Below, piece by piece: positions 5,330 to 57,208 of a stretch of DNA of 64,000 nucleotides. Source of the DNA: Arthrinium phaeospermum (taxonomy: Eukaryota > Ascomycota > Sordariomycetes > Amphisphaeriales > Apiosporaceae); NCBI GenBank assembly GCA_006503535.1, contig QYRS01000006.1, positions 1,178,001 through 1,242,000 on the forward strand. The letters are read 5' to 3'. The notes beneath the pieces are model-generated. The model was not told the origin of the DNA, did no database searches, and was given only the letters and a program-made list of their open reading frames with translations. The stretch's first letter is position 1, and each line of letters opens with the position of its first letter. Both the position numbers and the translations under genes were made by a program.

Positions 5330-6184
5330 ATGGTCAAGATCCAGATCCAGTCGGACCTCCACCTGGAGGTGTCGAGGTTCTACGACTTATACGAGATCGT
5401 CCCGAAAGCGCCGTACCTGGCTCTCCTTGGCGATATCGGGTGCTTCTCCAAGGGCTACGACGAGTACGCCAAGTTCCTCCTCGTGCAGCTGCGGAACTTC
5501 AAGGCCGTGCTGCTCGTCCTGGGAAACCACGAGCCCTACTACTCGGACTGGGAGGAGGCGAAATGGTACGTGGCCAAGTTCCAGGAGGACGTGGCGGCCC
5601 GGAAGCGGGCGGGCGAGCAGCTGGGGACGTTCGTCTTACTCGACCAGACCAGGTTCGACATTGATGACGAGGAAGGGGAGGGCGACGGGGCAGGCGTCAC
5701 GATTCTAGGGTGCACGCTCTTCTCGAGCGTGCCGCAAAAGTCGCGCAAGGACGTCGGTTTCGGGCTCAACGACTTCAACTTCATCGAGAACTGGGGCGTC
5801 GACGAGCACAACGGGGCGCACGCGAGCGACGTCGCCTGGCTCAACTCCGAGGTCCGGTCCCTCGAGGCGGCGGCGGCGGCATCCGGGTCAGACGGGACGG
5901 CGAGGCGGCGGCGGATCGCCGTTCTGACGCATTATTGCCCGACGTTCGACGAGCGCGCGCAGGACCCCCGGCACAAGAACAGTCCCCTCCAGTCCGGGTT
6001 CGCGACCGACCTGAGCGGCGAAGCGTGCTGGACGAGCGAGGCGGTCAAGCTGTGGGCTTTCGGGCATACGCATTACAATTGCGACTTCAACGACGAGCAT
6101 GGGAAACGCATATACAGCAACCAGCGCGGGTACGCCTTTAGCCAGTCGCCTGGCTTTGACGGGACGGCAGTGGTGGACGTTTGA
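5330..6184 (+). CDS. Calcineurin-like metallophosphoesterase
   Basis: Intronless, 284 aa. All five metallophosphatase blocks can be read in order: D-x-H (SDLHLE, Asp9/His11), GD (LLGDIG, Asp35), GNHE (Asn66/His67), a lone H (LTHYCP) and GHTH near residue 250. Together they bind the dinuclear metal centre that hydrolyses phosphomono- or diesters. The protein ends soon after the last block, so it is a bare catalytic domain with no signal peptide or membrane segment, most likely cytosolic. The start ATG sits in a good context (CACCATGG). A frame extension upstream lacks an ATG. Substrate cannot be told from sequence. Small fungal members of this kind are usually annotated only as Ser/Thr phosphatase-like. 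Confidence 0.9.
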   Translation: MVKIQIQSDLHLEVSRFYDLYEIVPKAPYLALLGDIGCFSKGYDEYAKFLLVQLRNFKAVLLVLGNHEPYYSDWEEAKWYVAKFQEDVAARKRAGEQLGTFVLLDQTRFDIDDEEGEGDGAGVTILGCTLFSSVPQKSRKDVGFGLNDFNFIENWGVDEHNGAHASDVAWLNSEVRSLEAAAAASGSDGTARRRRIAVLTHYCPTFDERAQDPRHKNSPLQSGFATDLSGEACWTSEAVKLWAFGHTHYNCDFNDEHGKRIYSNQRGYAFSQSPGFDGTAVVDV

Positions 6185-7454
6185 GGGTTGATTGACAGGC
6201 AACCTCGGACGATCTTCCAAATATGCGAATCTATGCCCAAGAAACAGTGATAGCAACATTCACCGACGGCTTGGGGCTCTGCGCGCAACGTCAAGACATC
6301 CTAGCTCTAGATGTCTGCACTTTCACCTGCGGCCTTTAGGTGGCGGCTTTTGTGGAGGACTACTGCGAGTTTGGTCGATATAAGTACGTTCTTCTGGACA
6401 AGACGTTATCAAGCCGCGAGAACTGATCTCTTGTGCAAAAATAGGCCCAGAATATATATCAGTTCCAAGAAACTTAATAATCTTGAAGACTTCGATATAT
6501 ATCTACTCGCGTACTATGACTGAAGGTAGGGTGCACTTTGTCTCGGGGAAATCAGGCTATATGCAGTTCAGACACATCATGATTCACGAGACATGTAGTT
6601 TTACTTTGCTCTGCAGCTAGGTAAGGTACGTTTCGGTCGACTGCATCGGCACTTGAACAGAGCAAACTACGTTCACCTACTCTTTTTTCTGGCAGCGGCA
6701 GTCGTGCGTGTCGGCCCCTATTTATTGTAGCCACAAAACATGCCGCACTCCGTGGCTTATTCGGGTTCGTACACGTATACCGTATTCGGGTCGCGGCGAC
6801 CAATCGTGCCGTCCGATGGATTGTACTTGTACGTGTAGCAAAAACAAAATTGGCTAATGTGACAACGCGATTTACCACTTGGCAGGGGAATCGAGCGTTG
6901 CGGGACCGGTTGAGGCTAGAACCATTGGCAAATGAAATTGCCATTCGAACTTTTTGCTGTCGAATCTCGGGCAGCTAACCACGATAGGAATGGTGGGGGC
7001 GCCGCTGTCCAATTGACTTTGTCGTTTTCGCAACGGAGAGGAGCATCGACAGCAGGGAGAGCAGAAAAGGCACCTTAACTCGACTAATAAACAAGCAAAG
7101 CGGTGGCCAGCATGTGCTTCTTCTCCTGAATGGCAGATTGTCGCTTGGGCAGAATCTTGGGTCCCTTCGCGACGGGGAAAAGGGGATCCAGTTTAATCAA
7201 ATAATAGACCAGATTGACTGTTACGGGCTCCAAGTACTACTGCATACTAGCAGCTCCCTTTTCTTAAAGTTGACTTGACTCGCTGGCAGACTTGCAAGCG
7301 GAGGCTATTGTGATCGAACCATTAGCTACTTCCAGACCGTTGCTTGCTGCTTCTTCTTCTGCTTCCCTCCCTCTTTCACACTTCCCCTTCGACTAATTAC
7401 CAAACTTTAATCAACTACCCGCTTCAACTCTTCTTCTACGCCAAATCATTCAAC
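6185..7454. other. Intergenic region, ERG6 promoter
   Basis: No gene is seen. The part next to ERG6 contains a pyrimidine-rich tract (about 7349-7399) made of repeated CTT/CCT runs, a common feature of strongly expressed fungal promoters and 5' leaders. I did not find a convincing sterol regulatory element by eye. Confidence 0.55.
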
Positions 7455-8753
7455 ATGGCCTCCAAGAGCAAGATCCTCGAGAAGCAGGACCGCGAGCGCG
7501 ATGCCGCCTTCAACACCGCCATGCACGGTGAGGCATCCGGTGCCGATGGTGGTTTCCGCGCCATGCTGCGTAAGGGTGGCGGTACCGCTGCCCAGCGCGC
7601 TGCCACCGAGGAGTATTTCAAGCACTGGGACAACCAGGACGCAAAGGACGAGACCGAGGAGACTCGAGCGGTAAGTAGCATTCTGCACCCCAAACTCGCT
7701 TGACGATGCTCGAAAGGGGTCGTACGATGTCTTTCGTGCCAACCTCCTGGTGAGAACGACGGCTTTTAGGAACCCATGAAACTGATTTCTGTCCTCTGCC
7801 CGCAGAAACGAACCGCCGAGTACGCCACGCTCACCCGCCACTACTACAACCTCGCGACCGACTTGTACGAGTATGGCTGGGGCCAGTCCTTCCACTTCTG
7901 CCGCTACTCGATCGGCGAGTCCTTCTACCAGGCCATCGCGCGCCACGAGCACTACCTCGCACACCAGATCGGCATCAAGGAGGGCATGAAGGTGCTCGAT
8001 GTTGGTTGCGGTGTGGGTGGCCCCGCCCGCGAGATCGCCAAGTTCACCGGTGCCCACATTACCGGCCTGAACAACAACGACTACCAGATTCAGCGCGCCA
8101 CTGCCTACGCGAAGAAGGAGGGTCTGTCGCACCAGCTGGCCTACGTCAAGGGCGACTTCATGCAGATGGACTTCCCCGACAACAGCTTCGACGCGGTCTA
8201 CGCCATCGAGGCTACCGTGCACGCTCCCGAGCTGTCGGGCGTCTACAGCGAGATCTTCCGTGTCCTGAAGCCCGGTGGTGTCTTCGGCGTCTACGAGTGG
8301 CTCATGACCGACGACTATGACAACGACAACCTGCACCACCGCGAGATCCGTCTGGGAATCGAGCAGGGTGACGGTATCTCCAACATGGTCAAGGTCTCGG
8401 AGGGTCTCGAGGCCATGAAGATCGCTGGATTCACCATGATGCACCACGAGGATCTGGCTGACCGCCCCGACCCCATGCCCTGGTACTGGCCCCTGGCCGG
8501 TCAGTGGAAGTACATGCAGAGCATCTACGATATCCCTACCATTGCGCGCATGACCTGGTGGGGACGTGGTCTTGCCCACCGCTTCGCTGGTATGCTGGAG
8601 ATGCTGCGAGTGGCTCCTGCCGGTACTAGGAAGACGGCCGACAGTCTTGCGGTTGCTGCTGACTGCCTGGTCGCTGGTGGTCGGGAGCACCTGTTCACCC
8701 CTATGTACCTGATGGTCGGCAAGAAGCCCGTCCACACCAACGGCTCGTCATAA
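7455..8753 (+). CDS. ERG6: Sterol 24-C-methyltransferase
   Basis: Two exons, 7455-7670 and 7806-8753, phase 0, with a 135-bp intron (GTAAGT...CGCAG), giving 387 aa, typical for the family. The enzyme transfers methyl from S-adenosylmethionine to C-24 of zymosterol in ergosterol synthesis, at the ER and lipid droplets. The aromatic sterol-binding block [11 protein letters not shown] lies at about 93-103. SAM-binding motif [11 protein letters not shown], follows at about 136-145. Later come the family blocks EATVHAPE and LKPGG. The C-terminal half reads PRPDP..WYWPL-like, as in other Erg6 proteins. Codon use is strongly biased to C-ending codons, fitting high expression. The start ATG follows a CT-rich leader and agrees with the usual N terminus. 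Confidence 0.97.
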
Positions 8754-10189
8754 AAGACAGGGCGATGGCGATAGAAGGGAAGAGTGACAGAAGAATAACA
8801 TAATGAGGTGCAAGCAGGGGCACATTGATGACAACACCAAACATCACAAATACCAAGCATCCCTCCAGAGAAGAGGGCAGACGTCACGAGACCGCGACTG
8901 ACAGCCAACCAAAGCTGCATATATCCCTTAGTGGTAATAGAGGGCCGAATGCTGACAGTACCACCGCCTCCCCCGTCTTACCACATCAGTGGGAGAGACC
9001 GGAACGACAGTGGGATGGAGCTCGGTTCCTTGATTCTATGTATCTATTTTCCGAACCCGACCTTAGCATTTGGCGGAGTATGGGGGTTTAGATGAAAAGT
9101 CAGCATCGACACAAGAGCATGTTAGAACTAATACAAATTATGAACAACCCTTTCTGATCCACCTACATACAAGAAGAGTGCTGGCGGCTGTGGTATCTAC
9201 AAAATTTATGAAGCGCCAATGGCGTCGCGAATTGACTTTTTGGGGTGTAGGTTTGCTCGCTGGGACCTGCTGGAGCTTCGGGGCTTGAAAGTTCTCTAGG
9301 TCCGACCTGTAGCTCTGAAGCTCACCTGGTGAAATGAATTGAGCCTGTTGACAGCTTTGCACGCATTAGATCTGGACTTGGTATACTGCTGCAGCCAATG
9401 GGTAAACTTTCATCCAATTCTCGAAGAGCGAGAGACGAGCAATATGCCTGGTGCTTTATATATTCATAATCTACATGTACATAGCTTCCAACACCGTCGA
9501 GTTGACAGGAAGACATCGGGCATCCCCAACGAAGATTCGTGGTGTCGTTGATAACGTCGGAGACTTCTGTTCAGATAAGAGGGCCGACCCTTGAGCTAGT
9601 TCCAGATCCGGTAGCAGGCTTAACCAGAATAAAACTAGCGCAATTGGGATATCTGGGCAAGCCCAACAAGAGTGGTTTCCTATTCTCCCCGAGAAAAAAA
9701 GTTGAGCGCAAAAGTCGGGACCTGACTTGGCTTTGCTCGCCTGGGATTGGTTCAGCAGCGCAAAAGTATCCAGCAAAAATCAGAAAGGCTGTACCAGCTA
9801 GAGGGAAAAAATCCCTCCAACGAATCTCATTGCTTGATTGCGACCAGCAGCCCAGCCCAGCGACCCCCCCAGATCCCTCCAGATAGAGTCAGTGAGAGAG
9901 AGAAGAAACAGGACCCAAGCATTGAAGACAGCTTAGCTCCAGCAGCGCAGCTTCCCCCCTGTAAACCACCTAACACTTTTTTGCTGTCTGCATGCTGACT
10001 TGATTTTCCACCCTTCCACGACTTCCGATCCCCAGTCCGAAATCTCACTTCCTGTCAATTGCTTGTCTGCCTGCCACATTTTCCGGCGGACCTCGGATTG
10101 GACTTGATCCTGTCTTTCTTTTTCCTTCTACCCTCTCTTAGCCAATTGACCCTTCTCCCGTCGCCTGTCTCCCGATAGCCTCCAACAAA
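8754..10189. other. Intergenic region, PDB1 promoter
   Basis: It holds the ERG6 3' flank and the promoter of the E1 beta gene. A pyrimidine-rich block (about 10107-10145) lies just before the PDB1 start. Short open frames here have no recognisable product. Confidence 0.55.
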
Positions 10190-11332
10190 ATGTCGCGATA
10201 CCTTCGACCGGCGGCCCGCGCTGCTGCCTCCGTCTCGCGAGCCACCGCCTTCTCTCCCTTCGCCTCCTCCACCATCCGAGCCATTCCCCGGGCTACCCCC
10301 ATATTCGCCCAAAGAAGGACGTACGCCGACAACAAGGGCGTCAAGGAGTACACGGTCCGTGATGCCCTGAACGAGGCTCTGGCCGAGGAGCTCGAGGGCA
10401 ACGACAAGGTCTTCGTCCTCGGTGAGGAAGTCGCCCAGTACAATGGTGCATACAAGGTGACCAAGGGTCTCCTCGACCGCTTCGGCGACCGCCGTGTCAT
10501 CGACACCCCGATCACCGAGTCCGGTTTCTGCGGTCTCGCTGTCGGTGCCGCCCTCAGCGGTCTCCACCCCGTCTGCGAGTTCATGACCTTCAACTTCGCC
10601 ATGCAGGCCATTGACCAGATTGTCAACTCCGCCGCCAAGACCCTGTACATGTCCGGTGGTATCCAGCCCTGCAACATCACCTTCCGTGGCCCCAACGGTT
10701 TCGCCGCTGGTGTCGGCGCCCAGCACTCCCAGGACTACAGCGCCTGGTACGGTTCCATCCCCGGTCTCAAGGTCGTCGCGCCTTGGTCCGCCGAGGATGC
10801 CAAGGGTCTTCTCAAGGCCGCCATCCGTGACCCCAACCCCGTCTGTGTCCTCGAGAACGAGCTTCTCTACGGCCAGAGCTTCCCCATGTCCGAGGCCGCC
10901 CAGAAGGACGACTTCGTCCTCCCCATCGGCAAGGCCAAGGTCGAGCGCCAGGGTAAGGACATGACCATTGTCTCCCTCTCCCGCTGCGTCGGCCAGTCGC
11001 TCGAGGCTGCCGATCAGCTCAAGTCCAAGTACGGCGTCGAGGCTGAGGTCATCAACCTGCGCTCCGTCAAGCCCCTCGACCTCGAGACCATCATCCAGAG
11101 CATCAAGAAGACTGGCCACCTGATGGTCGTCGAGTCCGGCTTCCCCGCTTTCGGTGTCGGTTCCGAGATCCTCGCCCTGGCCATGGAGTACGGCTTCGAC
11201 TACCTCAAGGCCCCCGGCCAGCGAGTCACCGGTGCCGAAGTCCCCACTCCCTACGCTCAGAAGCTCGAGGAGATGGCCTTCCCCACCATTGACATCATCG
11301 CCAACCAGGCCGCCCGACTTCTCAAGGTCTAA
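10190..11332 (+). CDS. PDB1: Pyruvate dehydrogenase E1 component subunit beta, mitochondrial
   Basis: Intronless, 380 aa. With the alpha subunit it forms the thiamine-diphosphate E1 enzyme that decarboxylates pyruvate in the mitochondrial matrix. The first ~43 residues are rich in Arg/Ala/Ser and lack acidic residues, ending QRRTYAD, a classic mitochondrial presequence. Mature blocks include [39 protein letters not shown], the [14 protein letters not shown] segment, [22 protein letters not shown] and the C-terminal [14 protein letters not shown] region of the transketolase C domain. Length and order match the family throughout. Codon bias is very strong, as for ERG6. A 454-codon antisense frame is only a shadow of this bias. 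Confidence 0.97.
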
Positions 11333-13228
11333 GTCGAGTCGCGAAGACAGACGGAGGTTCGGAAGGAGCAAGTGCGGTGGAAGTTGGTCACTTGCTAAGC
11401 CGTCGTCGAAGGAATCCAACCCCTTTCAACGAAGAGCTAAGCGAGGTCGTGGCGGGTCGAGGCTGCATTAGCCGCAACCCAAAAACGTAAACAATTCTCT
11501 CTCCCACATATATTACAGCCTATGGTTTTTTGTTCTCTTGATAGTAATGCGCAATTGGCATGGCATAGACGCGGAGTATGGATTTTCCCACGGGGCCCAA
11601 AGATAGGTCACAATTACAACGCCACGGGCTGTGATTCTCAAGAGGAGAGGGAACAGCAAGATGAGGCGGTTTCTGTACTTGTAAAGCTAGGCTAGAGAGG
11701 CGTGTGAATTGAAGAGGATCTGTACAATCTAGTAGTCGATTGGATTTTGTGTCTTCCAGCTCGTGGCGTGTGTGCCATCGTCGTAGGGGTGCCGTCAGGG
11801 TTGACGGCATGTGAGCTTCGTCAATCAAACGTTATCAGGCAGCTATACCTAGCAGTGGCAGATCGATCGGTAGGGGCTCAATGTTGACTGTCAACTTGAG
11901 CTTCTGAAAGACATGGGCGTTTACTGCATACTTACCTCCCGGAAACCATTTGGGCAATCTGAATACGTCACAGCACGTCTTGAACGGTCCATCGCATCAA
12001 TTGACGAATCAATGATGAAGAATTCCGAGTTACCCCTGGAAGAAACACACGAGCTGCCTCCTCACAGAGACGTCGGGTCGAATAGGGGTAGCTCGGATGC
12101 TATCTGTTCGTCCAAGTTGGGGTAACATTTTCAACTTGGCAAATCATAATACAAGAACGGCCTGTGGCAACCATTCATTCAGCTTAGGAAAATAGACAGT
12201 TGCATTTTGACCATACTACCTGAGGTCGCATTCAGTCGTCAATGTCAGCCTTACTTCCTATCAGTACGCATGTAACATCTCTTGATTGGCTCGAGTGGTC
12301 TCTACGCATTCGGATTTCTTCCTGACTCAATTTGGTACATATTTATTAGCCTCGCCCGCCCCCCTTCCTTTCATACTTGTTCGCTCTTTTTACCGTCCCC
12401 AAGGCTCGTTGTTCCAAAGAAATATGAGCTTTGGCCAAGGGGGATTGAAGCCAGAAGCCAACCCGTGAGAGACCGGGAAGCTTCGCCACGACGATGATGT
12501 CTTCAAACCTCATGCAGCACAATTGTATCGCAACGCAAGCAGCAATTCATAGCGGCATCAGACAACTCTCAATCGATAGTTTTCGTCATGCTGCAGCTGG
12601 CGCCCCCAGCTGAGGACCCCACTCGAGTCCCCCAAGTGCTTATGGCGGCGATATTCCGCGCCTCGGCATGAAACGGGTACGCCGCAAACTTATACATATA
12701 TCGATCGTTCAGTAACGGCTCTCTGGCCACAAAATTCGTTTAAGTTTCGCAAAATAGAAACAGAACAAATTCTAGTCCCAATTCCCCTTTTAGAAAAGAT
12801 TCGAATGCGAGATTTGCTGAAGATCATTGATTCATTCAGGACGTTCACGATCAGAAAGAGCACGAGGGCGCTGTTCCGCTCCCAGCTCATACCCCTGTCT
12901 TCAGTGCTGTCAACCTACCAACCAACCAATCACCCTGCCGATGGTTGGTTGATTGACAACACTGCCTGCCTTCAGCTGAACAATAAAAGAGCCTCGGGAC
13001 GGCTGAGCCAGCACGCCGCTCTCAGTTATAACACTACAAACCAGAGAATGATCAATATTCTCCATCTTTTCGGCATGGCGGTAGCTTGGCATCCAGGCTA
13101 TCGGACTCTCAGCGGACTGGGGGCTTCTTGACACTCTGCTGGTGGTGACAGAGGACTCTCCCCTACTTAACTTGGTCTGCTGCTGCTGGCCATCCAGCAA
13201 GTAAGTCAGCATAGCAAGCACAAAACAT
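11333..13228. other. Gene-free intergenic stretch
   Basis: About 1.9 kb between PDB1 and the SpeD-GNAT gene. It is less GC-rich than the flanking genes. Apart from an inverted repeat at 12920-12950, I recognise nothing. Confidence 0.55.
12920..12950. repeat. Short inverted repeat upstream of SpeD-GNAT gene
   Basis: AACCAACCA (12920-12928) is mirrored by TGGTTGGTT (12942-12950) with a 13-base loop. It lies about 280 bp before the SpeD-GNAT start. It could be a dimeric regulator site or chance. Confidence 0.4.
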
Positions 13229-14560
13229 ATGACACACGGCTTGAATACACTTGCAACAATGCTTCCGGAGTACGCCGACCTGGCGCCCCAGATCCTGCGC
13301 CAGCGGCTCGTGGTCGAGGGCTATCCCGCCAAGGCCATTGCAGAGGCCGAGATCAAGGACTACCTGTCCCAGCTGTCCGAGATCACGCGAATGACCCGCC
13401 TGCTCGAGCCGGTCACCCACCGGAGCGATCTCTACGGGTGGGCGGGTTGGATACACTGGGAGACCAGCGGCGCCCACTTCTACGCGTGGGAGAAGCCCCT
13501 GCTGTTCTTCAGCGTCGACATCTACACGTGCAAGCAGTTCGACCCGGAGCTCGTAGTGAATTTCACGCGCGACTTCTTCAAAGCCAGTAAAATCACGGCC
13601 AAGGACTTCAGCTCCTCTCCTATTCCACTGGAACCAGTCGTCGGTGAGAAGACGGCGAGTGCCCCGGCGGGTGTCGCAAGATATACCTTAGGTGACGCCG
13701 ATCTCGACAGGCTGTCCCGCCGGCTACTGGCCGAGCAGCCGCCCAGAGTCAGTGATCCCTTGGTCGTATACCGCCTCGACGGCACCGACGAGCTGTCCAA
13801 CCTGGCGCGGCACGTCGAGCGCGAGGTGTTCGAGGAGAGCTTCGGCAACGACGACGGGGAGATGCATCGGATCTACGGGCTATACGAGGACGTCAGCACC
13901 TTCTTCCTCGCCATGGACCAGACCACGCGGCGGCCCGTCGGGGCGCTGCGGGCCATGCGCGCGCGCGCGGATCTGGGCTTCCTCACGCTGCGGGAGGCGG
14001 AGAAGTACGCGGGCGTCACGCTCGCGCAGTTCCGGCATCACCACGGCCTCGACGCCGAGGCCGAAGCCGACTGGGCGGACCGGACCGTCGACTGGGGGAC
14101 CCTGGCCGTGCCGAAACCGCACCGCGCTGCCGGGGGGCATCTGCTGGCGGCCATGCTGTTCCGCGCCGGGCAGGTCTGGGCCTGCCTGCAGGGGATGCGG
14201 CACTACGTCCTTCTCGTCGACTCGGAGCTGCGGCGCACCTTCGACATGCTGGGATACCCGTTCGCGGCGCTGGCGGGCACGAAAGCCTTTAGCTACGAGG
14301 GGTCGGCGTCGAGCGCGCTGCTGTACGGGCGGCCGGCCGAGTTCTTCGGCACCATGGAGAGGAAGTGCGCCGAGACGAGGGATCCGCGGCTGAAGCCCAT
14401 CTTGCAGGCCTGGGTCGCGCGGTTCGTCCACGGGGTTGGGGTCGACCATCGGTTCATGTTCGAGTTTGCGGTGTGGCCGGGGGGCTCGTCGCCGGTGCCG
14501 GTGCCGTCTGGGGAGAGGAGGGTGGTGTTACGCGAAGACGGCGCCAAGGCGAAGCTGTAG
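13229..14560 (+). CDS. Fusion: SpeD-like (bacterial-type AdoMet decarboxylase) domain + GNAT/AHL-synthase-like domain
   Basis: Intronless, 443 aa, strongly GC-rich. Residues about 20-120 have the pattern of prokaryotic S-adenosylmethionine decarboxylase: LVVEGY near the start, helix DYLSQLSEI, then WIHWETSGAHFYAW and VDIYTCKQFDPE followed by FTRDFFKA. Ser80 aligns with the serine that becomes the pyruvoyl cofactor and Cys101 with the conserved catalytic cysteine. The residue before the serine is Thr instead of Glu, and the usual His five residues after it is Tyr85, with a His at 83. A linker (about 121-175) leads to a region (about 176-380) resembling GNAT acyltransferases of the autoinducer-synthase type: VFEESF, FFLAMD..RRPVGALRAM, VDWGTLAVPKPHR, YVLLVDSELRRTFDMLGY. 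SpeD homologues decarboxylate AdoMet, Orn or Arg. The combined function here is unknown. An alternative start is Met11. The domain calls are by eye. Confidence 0.75.
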   Translation: MTHGLNTLATMLPEYADLAPQILRQRLVVEGYPAKAIAEAEIKDYLSQLSEITRMTRLLEPVTHRSDLYGWAGWIHWETSGAHFYAWEKPLLFFSVDIYTCKQFDPELVVNFTRDFFKASKITAKDFSSSPIPLEPVVGEKTASAPAGVARYTLGDADLDRLSRRLLAEQPPRVSDPLVVYRLDGTDELSNLARHVEREVFEESFGNDDGEMHRIYGLYEDVSTFFLAMDQTTRRPVGALRAMRARADLGFLTLREAEKYAGVTLAQFRHHHGLDAEAEADWADRTVDWGTLAVPKPHRAAGGHLLAAMLFRAGQVWACLQGMRHYVLLVDSELRRTFDMLGYPFAALAGTKAFSYEGSASSALLYGRPAEFFGTMERKCAETRDPRLKPILQAWVARFVHGVGVDHRFMFEFAVWPGGSSPVPVPSGERRVVLREDGAKAKL

Positions 14561-54401: not shown

Positions 54402-55003
54402 AAGGGAGGTACAGGGTAAAGCGATTCATAAACTCCTTGCAGCAAGTGAGTTGGCCCTGTTTCTTTTGCTCGGAGCCCAGGTTGGTGGTGAACTCAAATG
54501 CCTCCAACTGTAAGGTGAGGTCAGGTGAGGTGCCACATATGTGGCTTTTCCAGGTCTTTTCTGTGAGGTGAGTGCATGGACTGACTGACACTGACCAGGT
54601 CGCAGGGTAGCGAGAGCCAGGCAAACTGACGGGTAGCATTCGAACTGCCTCTCGTTCCAGAGGGCTCCCAGAACCAACTGGCCACTACATTGCCCTCTCC
54701 CTCTTTGGTCTTGTGGCGTCTGTATGAGTATCAAATCTCTATTCGTTTTCTACCAGGGAATTTTCGATTTGATCAAGATAAAGTGCAATTGCCCCTTGCA
54801 GACACAATCTCATTCTGCCTGGTTCATCATATCCAGTTGGTCGGAGTTAAGCACCGTACTATATCCGGCTTATGCTCGCCTAAGGGCAGAAAGCCTTCCG
54901 ATTGGTGCCCGAAACCCCGCCGTAATAATATATAGATTTCTCCTGTTTCCACCGTACGATAATCGCCCGACATGTGAACCACGCATCGAATACTCCTGGC
55001 CAA
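54402..55003. other. Intergenic region, HET gene promoter
   Basis: It contains AGGTG-rich sequence and a 14-bp perfect palindrome (listed separately), about 460 bp before the HET ATG. Nothing else is seen. Confidence 0.5.
54532..54545. promoter_or_regulatory. 14-bp perfect palindrome, possible regulator site
   Basis: GCCACATATGTGGC is fully self-complementary and has a CATATG core resembling an E-box-type site. It is flanked by AGGTGAGGT direct repeats. Binding is conjecture. Confidence 0.35.
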
Positions 55004-57208
55004 ATGAGTTGTTCCTTAGAGAATCCCATGCGGGTGGGCAGCAGTGCCGTCTTGTGTCAGACCTGCCGCCAGTTCATCCAGGCCTTGTCCGACTTCTACC
55101 ACAACGAGGGGTACCCCGACCAGGGCTGGGAAGCAGACGAGAAAGCCTCCAGATCCGAATCCCACAGGGGCGTAGCATTCCAACACCAGCTCTCTTTCGA
55201 AGCCCTCGCCTCCAGTGCCCCATCATGCCACCTGTGCCATCTGCTCCACGACGACTTCGCCAGCGAAGACCCAGACCTGCTGCGCGGCTGGCTGGCGCTG
55301 TACCCGCTCCACCATGAGACCTACCCGGGCGAAAACAAGCGCAAGGGCTATTTCCGCGCCGGCTTCAGCGGCTCTCTTCTCCGCATGAGTTGGAATGACA
55401 GTGCTAGGGTCGAGGACCAACCGCAGCATACCTACCGCATCGGCCGGCTACGCGACGATCCGGTCGCTGGCAATCGGTTCCGGGATGAGGCGGTGGATGG
55501 GCCTAGCGACGGGGAGGGGCCGTGGGGGGATGCTAAGAGGGAGGTTGTTGCGGTGCCGCCGCGGCCGACGCCGGAGTATATTGCTCGGAGGTACGGGGAT
55601 TGGGTCGCGACTTGTCGGAAACACCCGAAGCATGAACGATGTCGCGGCAGCACCGACGGGAACCAGCAGAATCCTCATTCTCTTCTTCAAACACCCCTGG
55701 ACCAAGGCGAGCTGCCGACCCGTGTCATAGATCTGGGGCCGCCGCAGTCCACTGAGTTACCACGTCTATACACTGCCGTCCCGGGCGAGAAGGCACCGTA
55801 TGTCGCCTTAAGTCACTGCTGGGGCGGTGCCATCCCCGCGAGCACCGTACTATCCAATCTGGAGGCTCGCATCGACGTACTGCCCGTGGATGAACTGCCC
55901 CGCAACTTCCGAGACGCCCTGGTCGTGACGCGAGCGCTGGGTATCCGCTATCTTTGGATCGACAGCCTATGCATCATCCAGGACTCCCCGGCCGACTGGC
56001 TCGCCGAAGCCAGCAAGATGGCCCTGGTATACGCCGGCGCCGCCGCCGTCGTCTCCGCCCTCGAGGCCCCCTCCAGCACCGCCGGCTTCCTCCACCCCGA
56101 CTCCGACCGCGTCCCCCGCGCCATCCTCAACGAATCCCACGCCGTCCAAAAAGCCTTCAAGCGCCCCTACGACTACCTCCAGACCTGCCCCCTGAACCGC
56201 CGCGCCTGGTGCATGCAGGAGCGCCTCCTCGCCCGGCGCGTGCTGCACTTCGGCCGCGAGCAGCTGTACTGGGAGTGCGCCGCCGCCCTCGCGAGCGAGG
56301 CGGGCGACAATTACAAGGCCGACGGGACGGGCCACGTGGCCGCCTCGTTCGTCAAGCTGCGCCGCACCATCCACGACCCGCCCGCGTGGGAGGGCGAGTG
56401 GAATCACTGGTACAAGCTGCTCGAGGAGTACACGACGCGCTCGCTGACCGTGGGGTCCGATAAGCTGCCCGCGCTGGCCGGCGCGGCGTTTCTGACCCAG
56501 TCGCGCGGCTTGCGGGACGGCAGTGGTTCGCCGACTTATGTCGCGGGTCTTTGGCGCGAGGACCTGGCGCGGGGGCTGGTGTGGGGGGCTTGGTACGAGC
56601 ACGCTGAGGGGCGCAAGTCGCCGGGGTATGCCGACGATGATAGATGTAGCACGCTCGTGGCAGCACCAACGACGAAGAACGGCCGCCCGCGGGCGCCGAG
56701 CTGGAGTTGGGCTTCGGTGGATGGGGCTGTCATCTTTTGGGCGTTACGGGTGTTTCCCATTCGGATATGGGATCTGATGCTCGAGGAGCTGGAGGTGATG
56801 ATGGAAAAGGGGGAGGACGCGCTGACTGAGGCGGAGCCGGTTGGGGTGTTGAGGGTGCGGGGACCGCTGGCGCCGGTGGTGTACCATCCCCGCGTGCTTC
56901 TGGAAAAGGAGAAGGGGGCTGTGGCGGATGTTGGGTATTTGACCGTTGCTGGGGATCAGGAGGAGGATGGGGATGATGCGGCGACGATTATGTCTGGGTG
57001 TGTCATGGATACGAACCGGGACGTGGGGCGGAGTTGCTATGCTTTGCTTGTTTACAGTATCAGTTACTATGTCAATGTGGATAAGTATCTGTTGGTGTTG
57101 GAAAAGGGGGAGGCAGAGGGAACTTTCAAGCGAGTCGGGATATGTAAGACTGCAGGGGGTGAGGAGTTTATTAGGAGATTTACGATGAAGGACATCGTAA
57201 TTATTTAA
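55004..57208 (+). CDS. HET-domain (heterokaryon incompatibility) protein
   Basis: Intronless, 734 aa from the ATG at 55004; the open frame upstream has only a GTG. The N terminus carries cysteine pairs (LCQTCRQFI about 18-26, PSCHLCHLLHDDF about 75-87), a common start of fungal HET proteins. The HET domain spans about 265-420. Its blocks are PYVALSHCWGG, LPRNFRDALVVTRALGIRYLWIDSLCIIQDSPADWLAEASKM and, later, CPLNRRAWCMQERLLARRVLHFG. The C-terminal part has the usual RAPSWSWASVDG motif (about 575) and beta-rich remainder. HET proteins trigger cell death on non-self fusion or act as NLR-type partners; specificity here is unknown. No NACHT or ankyrin domain is attached. The downstream dehydrogenase gene is convergent, 224 bp away. 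Confidence 0.93.
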   Translation: MSCSLENPMRVGSSAVLCQTCRQFIQALSDFYHNEGYPDQGWEADEKASRSESHRGVAFQHQLSFEALASSAPSCHLCHLLHDDFASEDPDLLRGWLALYPLHHETYPGENKRKGYFRAGFSGSLLRMSWNDSARVEDQPQHTYRIGRLRDDPVAGNRFRDEAVDGPSDGEGPWGDAKREVVAVPPRPTPEYIARRYGDWVATCRKHPKHERCRGSTDGNQQNPHSLLQTPLDQGELPTRVIDLGPPQSTELPRLYTAVPGEKAPYVALSHCWGGAIPASTVLSNLEARIDVLPVDELPRNFRDALVVTRALGIRYLWIDSLCIIQDSPADWLAEASKMALVYAGAAAVVSALEAPSSTAGFLHPDSDRVPRAILNESHAVQKAFKRPYDYLQTCPLNRRAWCMQERLLARRVLHFGREQLYWECAAALASEAGDNYKADGTGHVAASFVKLRRTIHDPPAWEGEWNHWYKLLEEYTTRSLTVGSDKLPALAGAAFLTQSRGLRDGSGSPTYVAGLWREDLARGLVWGAWYEHAEGRKSPGYADDDRCSTLVAAPTTKNGRPRAPSWSWASVDGAVIFWALRVFPIRIWDLMLEELEVMMEKGEDALTEAEPVGVLRVRGPLAPVVYHPRVLLEKEKGAVADVGYLTVAGDQEEDGDDAATIMSGCVMDTNRDVGRSCYALLVYSISYYVNVDKYLLVLEKGEAEGTFKRVGICKTAGGEEFIRRFTMKDIVII

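Follow-up and report, generated by a model that had tools for sequence, protein, structure and literature searches.

A SpeD-like domain fused to a predicted acyltransferase domain in the fungus Arthrinium phaeospermum has relatives encoded by neighboring bacterial genes

A Fused Gene in the Genome of A. phaeospermum

The 64,000-nucleotide stretch of the A. phaeospermum genome analyzed here (contig QYRS01000006.1 of assembly GCA_006503535.1, positions 1,178,001 to 1,242,000; hereafter the window) encodes a protein in which a domain resembling SpeD, a bacterial S-adenosylmethionine (AdoMet) decarboxylase, is fused to a putative GNAT-type acyltransferase domain (Table 1). The open reading frame (ORF) of 443 codons is uninterrupted by stop codons and lies on a 3.7-Mb contig with fungal genes around it. 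A Pfam scan of the protein identified AdoMet_dc (PF02675) at residues 38–126 (E-value 2e-9; 38.2 bits against a cut-off of 25) and no second Pfam family. Structure prediction yielded the AdoMet decarboxylase fold for the SpeD-like half and, for the other half, the GNAT fold of the subclass that comprises acyl-homoserine lactone (AHL) synthases and FeeM, with both predictions built on shallow alignments. The Pfam match and the predicted fold bear out an earlier note on this DNA, which had read residues ~20–120 as a SpeD-type domain; its reading of residues ~176–380 as a GNAT of the AHL-synthase type agrees with the predicted fold, though without a Pfam match.

Table 1. Features of the fused gene, in window coordinates; clade rows are aligned sequences of the SpeD-like clade described in the text.
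Feature	Position	Strand	Basis
Fused gene (443 amino acids): SpeD-like domain, linker, and predicted AHL-synthase/FeeM-type GNAT domain	13229..14560	+	
Additional in-frame ATG of the fused gene	13259		
SpeD-like domain, residues 17–127	13277..13609	+	
Ala72 codon, eight before the pyruvoyl serine	13442..13444	+	Ser in 0 of 38 clade rows and 9 of 9 others
Ser80 codon, pyruvoyl serine position (T. maritima S63)	13466..13468	+	Ser in 38 of 38 clade rows
Tyr85 codon, catalytic His68 position	13481..13483	+	Tyr in all 38 clade rows; His in all nine other AdoMet_dc rows
Cys101 codon, T. maritima C83 position	13529..13531	+	Cys in 38 of 38 clade rows
Linker, at the place of the bacterial stop and new start	13610..13750	+	Alignments, bacterial junctions
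Predicted AHL-synthase/FeeM-type GNAT domain, residues about 175–405	13751..14443	+	

The fused gene was the sole AdoMet_dc match found in the fungal genome. A eukaryotic Spe2-type AdoMet decarboxylase is also encoded, on another contig (E-value 1.5e-118), which excludes the fused gene as the housekeeping AdoMet decarboxylase of the fungus.

Bacterial Relatives Are Encoded by Paired Genes

Relatives were sought in prokaryotic, viral, phage, and plasmid collections. A protein scan of GTDB genome contigs yielded five, all from bacterial metagenome-assembled genomes (MAGs; Saccharimonadia, Modestobacter, Acidimicrobiales, Acidimicrobiia, and Actinomycetes bins). Their SpeD-like parts are 57–73% identical to that of the fungus (five rows) and their GNATs 27–33% identical (four rows, since the GNAT of the fifth relative is truncated by a contig end). 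At these five loci, the SpeD-like protein and the GNAT are encoded by separate neighboring genes, and at seven bacterial junctions the GNAT start, taken as the nearest in-frame start, overlaps the SpeD stop by one base or follows it by at most 17 bases. The domain pairing is therefore not specific to the fungus. The fusion itself was seen at none of the bacterial loci that were read, where the two ORFs are separate throughout; long ORFs spanning both genes at L004, L120, L123, and L125 are frame extensions. A viral origin was rejected, as no relative was identified in viral contigs (with six plus two peptide patterns) or in phage records.

Profile searches with a six-row SpeD alignment were conducted on four overlapping draws of genomes. 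Matches were identified in 9 of 396 genomes from the phylum of G003: G003 and two others scored at least 182 bits, one scored 102, and five lay near 30. The phylum of the Saccharimonadia MAG gave 19 of 286, with that MAG and one other reaching at least 200 bits, three at 120–130, and fourteen weak. In the order of G636, 17 of 294 matched; eleven, G636 among them, scored about 190 bits or higher, three fell at 78–117, and three were weak. In the class of G003, 11 of 296 matched, of which ten (G003 and G289 included) had at least 176 bits and one had 70. Nine weak matches, those that were aligned, are AdoMet_dc proteins of other kinds and retain the standard His and Ser. The GNAT profile exceeded 100 bits in five genomes from the draws of 396 and 286; four of these GNATs lie beside a SpeD-like gene, and the fifth (L075) has no SpeD-like gene and adjoins a kinase.

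Loci scoring at least 176 bits were defined as the core and comprised 26 bacterial loci; many of the bacterial loci come from MAGs. The first eight (L002–L006, L026, L027, and L055) prompted the idea of the association described here, and 18 later loci (L105–L114 and L118–L125) were fetched afterwards as a test of it. A GNAT directly adjoins the SpeD-like gene at 23 of the 26 core loci (7 of the initial 8, and 8 of 10 and 8 of 8 in the later draws); L004 and L005 have identical gene order and are not independent. At L114, the protein in the GNAT slot (899–1780) has a weak, 36-bit match to the GNAT profile and none in Pfam above cut-off; it and the slot protein of L105 are possibly much diverged or substituted acyltransferases.

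Clade loci outside the core (L028, L056–L058, L067–L069, L115–L117, and L126) yielded no match to the GNAT profile. An ordinary annotated GNAT adjoins the gene at L069, a response regulator lies about 0.9 kb off at L057, a kinase 1.4 kb off at L126, and L117 has a 35-bit GGDEF match. SpeD-like genes with the Tyr signature described below and without the family GNAT form a group at L056:5407-5766, L057:930-1295, and L058:3202-3564; the neighbors at L056 are presumably subunits of a 2-oxoacid:ferredoxin oxidoreductase. Diverged genes with the Tyr signature are also borne on plasmids of Halioglobus, Nostoc, and Acaryochloris (L067:5995-6351, L068:6995-7357, and L069:6995-7351).

Membrane Sensors Adjoin the Bacterial Pairs

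A sensor is encoded nearby at 23 of the 26 core loci (7 of the initial 8, and 10 of 10 and 6 of 8 in the later draws). The misses are L006 and L118, on contigs that stop within the GNAT gene, and L120, which has 7.5 kb without a sensor match. In Patescibacteria, the loci carry a membrane histidine kinase and, on the opposite side, a divergent gene matching a response-regulator profile; the latter is present at all 10 new Patescibacterial loci as well as at L002 and L055 (at L055 as Pfam Response_reg). In Actinomycetota, the sensors are transmembrane (TM)-GGDEF-EAL proteins. Within each sensor type, the membrane domains share homology, which is weak for L003. The membrane domain of the kinases is labeled seven-transmembrane (7TM) on the basis of homology to the HisKA_7TM region of the kinases at L076 and L077; the L055 kinase itself is unmatched by the Pfam HisKA_7TM model. 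At L107, separate ORFs encode the membrane and kinase parts, at L109 and L124 the sensor is a fragment at the contig end, and at L113 a kinase unmatched by the membrane-domain profile lies 2.1 kb off. At L026 (region 6693-11766), the core SpeD-like gene is flanked by an Amidohydro_2 protein and a TM-GGDEF-EAL protein, beyond which lies a 291-residue ORF with a 30-bit match to the GNAT profile and no Pfam family.

Such domains are few per genome, with 26, 13, 10, 3, and 21 EAL matches in five of these genomes and 11, 7, 6, 7, and 1 HisKA matches in five Patescibacterial genomes. We therefore estimate the probability of chance adjacency at near 1% per locus, assuming one gene per kb.

GNATs of the wider family that lack a SpeD-like partner also occur near a membrane histidine kinase in Patescibacteria (L075:7339-10807, L076:163-3853, and L077:5101-7433). 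At L076, a ThiF-family gene lies between GNAT and kinase; in G421, the kinase near the SpeD-less GNAT is the sole HisKA match found; and the L077 GNAT matches PF00765 at 4.2e-11. These observations agree with PMC7567580, which reports 18 LuxI homologs adjacent to sensory kinases in genomes of the Candidate Phyla Radiation (CPR). They are taken to support an association of the sensor with the GNAT, not with SpeD, the SpeD-like protein altering the substrate.

A SpeD Subfamily with Tyrosine in Place of the Catalytic Histidine

The fungal domain and related bacterial proteins form a clade in which P20, R24, R26, E30, P61, S80, G81, Y85, T100, and C101 are invariant across 38 rows. In all nine other AdoMet_dc rows, the residues at positions 24, 72, 85, and 100 are G, S, H, and S, respectively, and phylogenetic reconstruction separates the clade from the others with support of 98/98 (16 versus 7 rows, with long branches among the others). 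The earlier note had placed the pyruvoyl serine and the cysteine at residues 80 and 101; both assignments stand, as these residues align with S63 and C83 of Thermotoga maritima AdoMet decarboxylase in addition to being invariant. Tyr85 aligns with T. maritima His68, and position 72 corresponds to that of S55, the second processing serine. According to PMC10407285, S63, H68, and C83 are essential for self-processing.

With the catalytic His replaced by Tyr and the second Ser lost, activity and substrate cannot be inferred from sequence. Either Tyr substitutes for His in processing or the domain is unprocessed. The strict conservation of Ser and Cys favors catalysis, and we consider the SpeD-like half probably catalytic. 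The fungal protein scores 12.4 bits against the 75.65 required by the NCBIfam equivalog model TIGR03330, a miss that weighs little because the His-bearing proteins L029 and L060 also miss it (38.3 and 39.2 bits).

The clade's known relatives are class 1b AdoMet decarboxylase (SpeD, PF02675; T. maritima TM0655) and its derivatives SpeDA and SpeDC, arginine or ornithine decarboxylases whose diagnostic residues are set out in Figure 8 of PMC10407285. It differs from class 1b SpeD in the His-to-Tyr replacement, the lost second processing Ser, the invariant N-terminal P20, R24, R26, and E30, a score below the TIGR03330 cut-off, and its separate branch. By these sequence features, the Tyr-variant clade is a new SpeD subfamily. 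Of the earlier reading of the domain as an AdoMet decarboxylase, the relationship to SpeD thus survives and its identity as a standard enzyme does not.

Searching solved structures by sequence returned only weak, unrelated matches for the six-row SpeD alignment and for the GNAT alignment, and a wider SpeD alignment recovered the T. maritima enzyme at 2.2e-12. Aligning every row jointly to the full-length protein put the GNAT rows in the wrong place, and that alignment was discarded.

Origin of the Fungal Gene

A second fungal GNAT of the family was identified elsewhere in the genome (L008; G000 C10:2033636-2037190), with matches at 1501-2055 and, in another frame, at 1929-2348. It is 44% identical to the fused GNAT and has no SpeD match, and its frame changes part-way, which means a broken gene or a sequencing error at that point. 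The GNAT tree groups the two fungal GNATs together (100/98) and with the Patescibacterial L002 and L110 (99/98). A smaller tree places the fungal pair inside a Patescibacterial group (98/98), with four SpeD-less GNATs set apart. L002 is assigned to the Saccharimonadia and the others belong to the same phylum; we refer to them as Saccharimonadia-type.

Because the bacterial copies are separate genes accompanied by sensors, transfer from a bacterium to the fungus with fusion is the simplest account, and a transfer in the direction from Patescibacteria to the fungus is probable, judging from the GNAT trees and gene arrangement. The G+C content at third codon positions (GC3) of the fused gene is 0.87, at the top of the range in six other window ORFs (0.50–0.87), and is 0.37 and 0.43 in the two L002 genes, the former value being that of the SpeD gene. 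Third codon positions have diverged from the bacterial gene and amino acids are conserved. Together with the fungal-range GC3, this indicates that the transfer was not recent and that the gene is not contamination. This codon-position conservation and the fungal neighbors also exclude a chance ORF or an artefact.

Proposed Function and Alternatives

Collectively, these observations lead us to propose that the fused gene encodes a two-domain N-acyl amine synthase. A two-gene operon of a Saccharimonadia-type Patescibacterium would have been acquired horizontally by the fungus, with the genes fused along the way. Self-cleavage at Ser80 would generate a pyruvoyl group, with the Tyr variant in place of His, and the SpeD-like half may then decarboxylate AdoMet, ornithine, arginine, or another (cationic) amino acid to an amine; AdoMet, which AHL synthases also bind, is an attractive candidate. 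From its predicted LuxI/FeeM-like fold, the GNAT half would acylate that amine from acyl-coenzyme A or acyl carrier protein, and fusion would permit channeling between the halves. In bacteria, gene order suggests that the product is most likely a diffusible signal detected by the adjacent histidine kinase or TM-GGDEF-EAL protein. The linkage of a putative synthase gene to a candidate receptor, as expected of a quorum-sensing system, is seen at the bacterial loci. Sensor profiles, searched within the window, gave no match there; without such a sensor beside the fungal gene, its product would act outward, on bacteria, or as a specialized metabolite. An N-acyl polyamine or AdoMet-derived signal, the product class suggested in the earlier note, is still the most likely. 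As a whole, we consider this the best explanation and give it about an even chance of being correct. More tentatively, the LuxI/FeeM-type synthase and Tyr-variant SpeD-like decarboxylase may constitute an unrecognized signaling class, in which an N-acylated decarboxylated amine or a derivative of decarboxylated AdoMet would be sensed in Patescibacteria by membrane histidine kinases and in Actinomycetota by TM-GGDEF-EAL proteins; the fungus would have taken and fused the producer half of the epibiont lineage and could make, mimic, or jam the signal.

Several observations weigh against the proposed synthase and its origin. No clade row retains His68 or the second processing Ser, which, given the requirements described in PMC10407285, suggests that the SpeD-like half may be inactive. 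The fungal GNAT half falls below every sequence-family cut-off in the Pfam and NCBIfam scans. Of the three core loci without an adjoining GNAT, L113 has no recognizable one, L105 has in the GNAT slot a 260-residue ORF (5381-6163) unmatched by the GNAT profile or Pfam, and L026 has only the 30-bit match, which lies past the sensor and one gene off. The GNAT tree was rooted at its midpoint and contains long branches (L109, L114, and others), and the Patescibacterial row L111 falls among Actinomycetota. The fungal domain is not placed by the SpeD trees; it groups with L027 with poor support in a smaller one and sits at an open fork in a larger one.

One alternative, which we regard as possible but doubtful, is that the SpeD-like half is a non-enzymatic binding or dimerization partner, a role also proposed for the SpeD-like domain of animal spermine synthase, and that the product, perhaps a conventional AHL or N-acyl amino acid, is made by the acyltransferase alone. 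Such a role fits poorly with the invariance of Ser80 and Cys101 across the clade and with a SpeD-like protein that is much better conserved than the GNAT. Alternatively, the SpeD-like half could still make decarboxylated AdoMet, and the fusion could serve fungal polyamine metabolism through turnover of N-acyl or N-acetyl polyamines, with no signaling. GNATs commonly acylate polyamines, and the predicted decarboxylase fold with its conserved Ser and Cys is compatible with this role, but Spe2 is already present in the genome, the GNAT fold is predicted to be of the AHL-synthase/FeeM type, and no spermidine synthase was noticed among the neighbors examined, although no dedicated search for speE was made. 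The membrane sensors at the bacterial loci likewise favor a signal over ordinary polyamine metabolism, and we consider the polyamine explanation improbable. Least probable is that the fused gene is a functionless relic or an assembly artefact; the frame change in the C10 GNAT copy is in keeping with decay, but the fused ORF is intact, its large contig carries fungal genes around it, and its amino acids have been kept while third positions diverged and GC3 came to differ from that of the bacterial SpeD gene.

Relation to Known Systems

A pairing with SpeD is not known among AHL synthases or FeeM. The fungal GNAT shares a predicted fold class with LuxI and FeeM and is unmatched by sequence to the AHL synthases (LuxI/LasI, PF00765), FeeM (PF21926), or the PEP-CTERM/exosortase acyltransferase family TIGR03694; its branch is usually paired with a SpeD-like gene, L075 being an exception. 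N-acylputrescine natural products such as palmitoylputrescine belong to the same possible product class and are not linked to this gene family by the evidence here. The CPR systems of PMC7567580 likewise place a synthase-like GNAT near a kinase, and L077 with its kinase looks like that type; here, in contrast, a SpeD-like gene precedes the GNAT, Actinomycetota use GGDEF-EAL sensors, and the fungus has a fusion. The text of PMC7567580 does not contain the word "decarboxylase," nor does that of PMC10407285 contain "acetyltransferase" or "homoserine." Animal spermine synthase, acquired as a bacterial AdoMet decarboxylase-synthase fusion according to PMC12803844, likewise joins a bacterial SpeD-type domain to a partner enzyme in a eukaryote, but the partner is an aminopropyltransferase and not a GNAT. 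Among the open-licence papers listed by literature searches, no title or abstract opening described a SpeD-acyltransferase pair or such a fungal fusion.

The finding joins a His-less SpeD subfamily, a candidate two-enzyme signal synthase common to Patescibacteria and Actinomycetota, and what is probably a gene transfer into a fungus from Patescibacteria, and it bears on whether Tyr can replace His in pyruvoyl enzymes. It may also offer an entry point to communication between Saccharimonadia-type bacteria and their neighbors; cultivated Saccharibacteria grow on Actinomycetota, as stated in PMC10633639.

Surroundings of the Fused Gene

The fused gene lies in an ordinary region of a fungal chromosome. 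No obvious biosynthetic cluster was identified among the ten other window ORFs scanned, eight of which have Pfam matches: histidine phosphatase, metallophosphoesterase, sterol methyltransferase, a transketolase-type protein (presumably resembling pyruvate dehydrogenase E1-beta), Fung_rhodopsin, an OPT transporter, tyrosinase, and HET. The gene with the HET (heterokaryon incompatibility) domain lies at positions 54929-57208 of the window.
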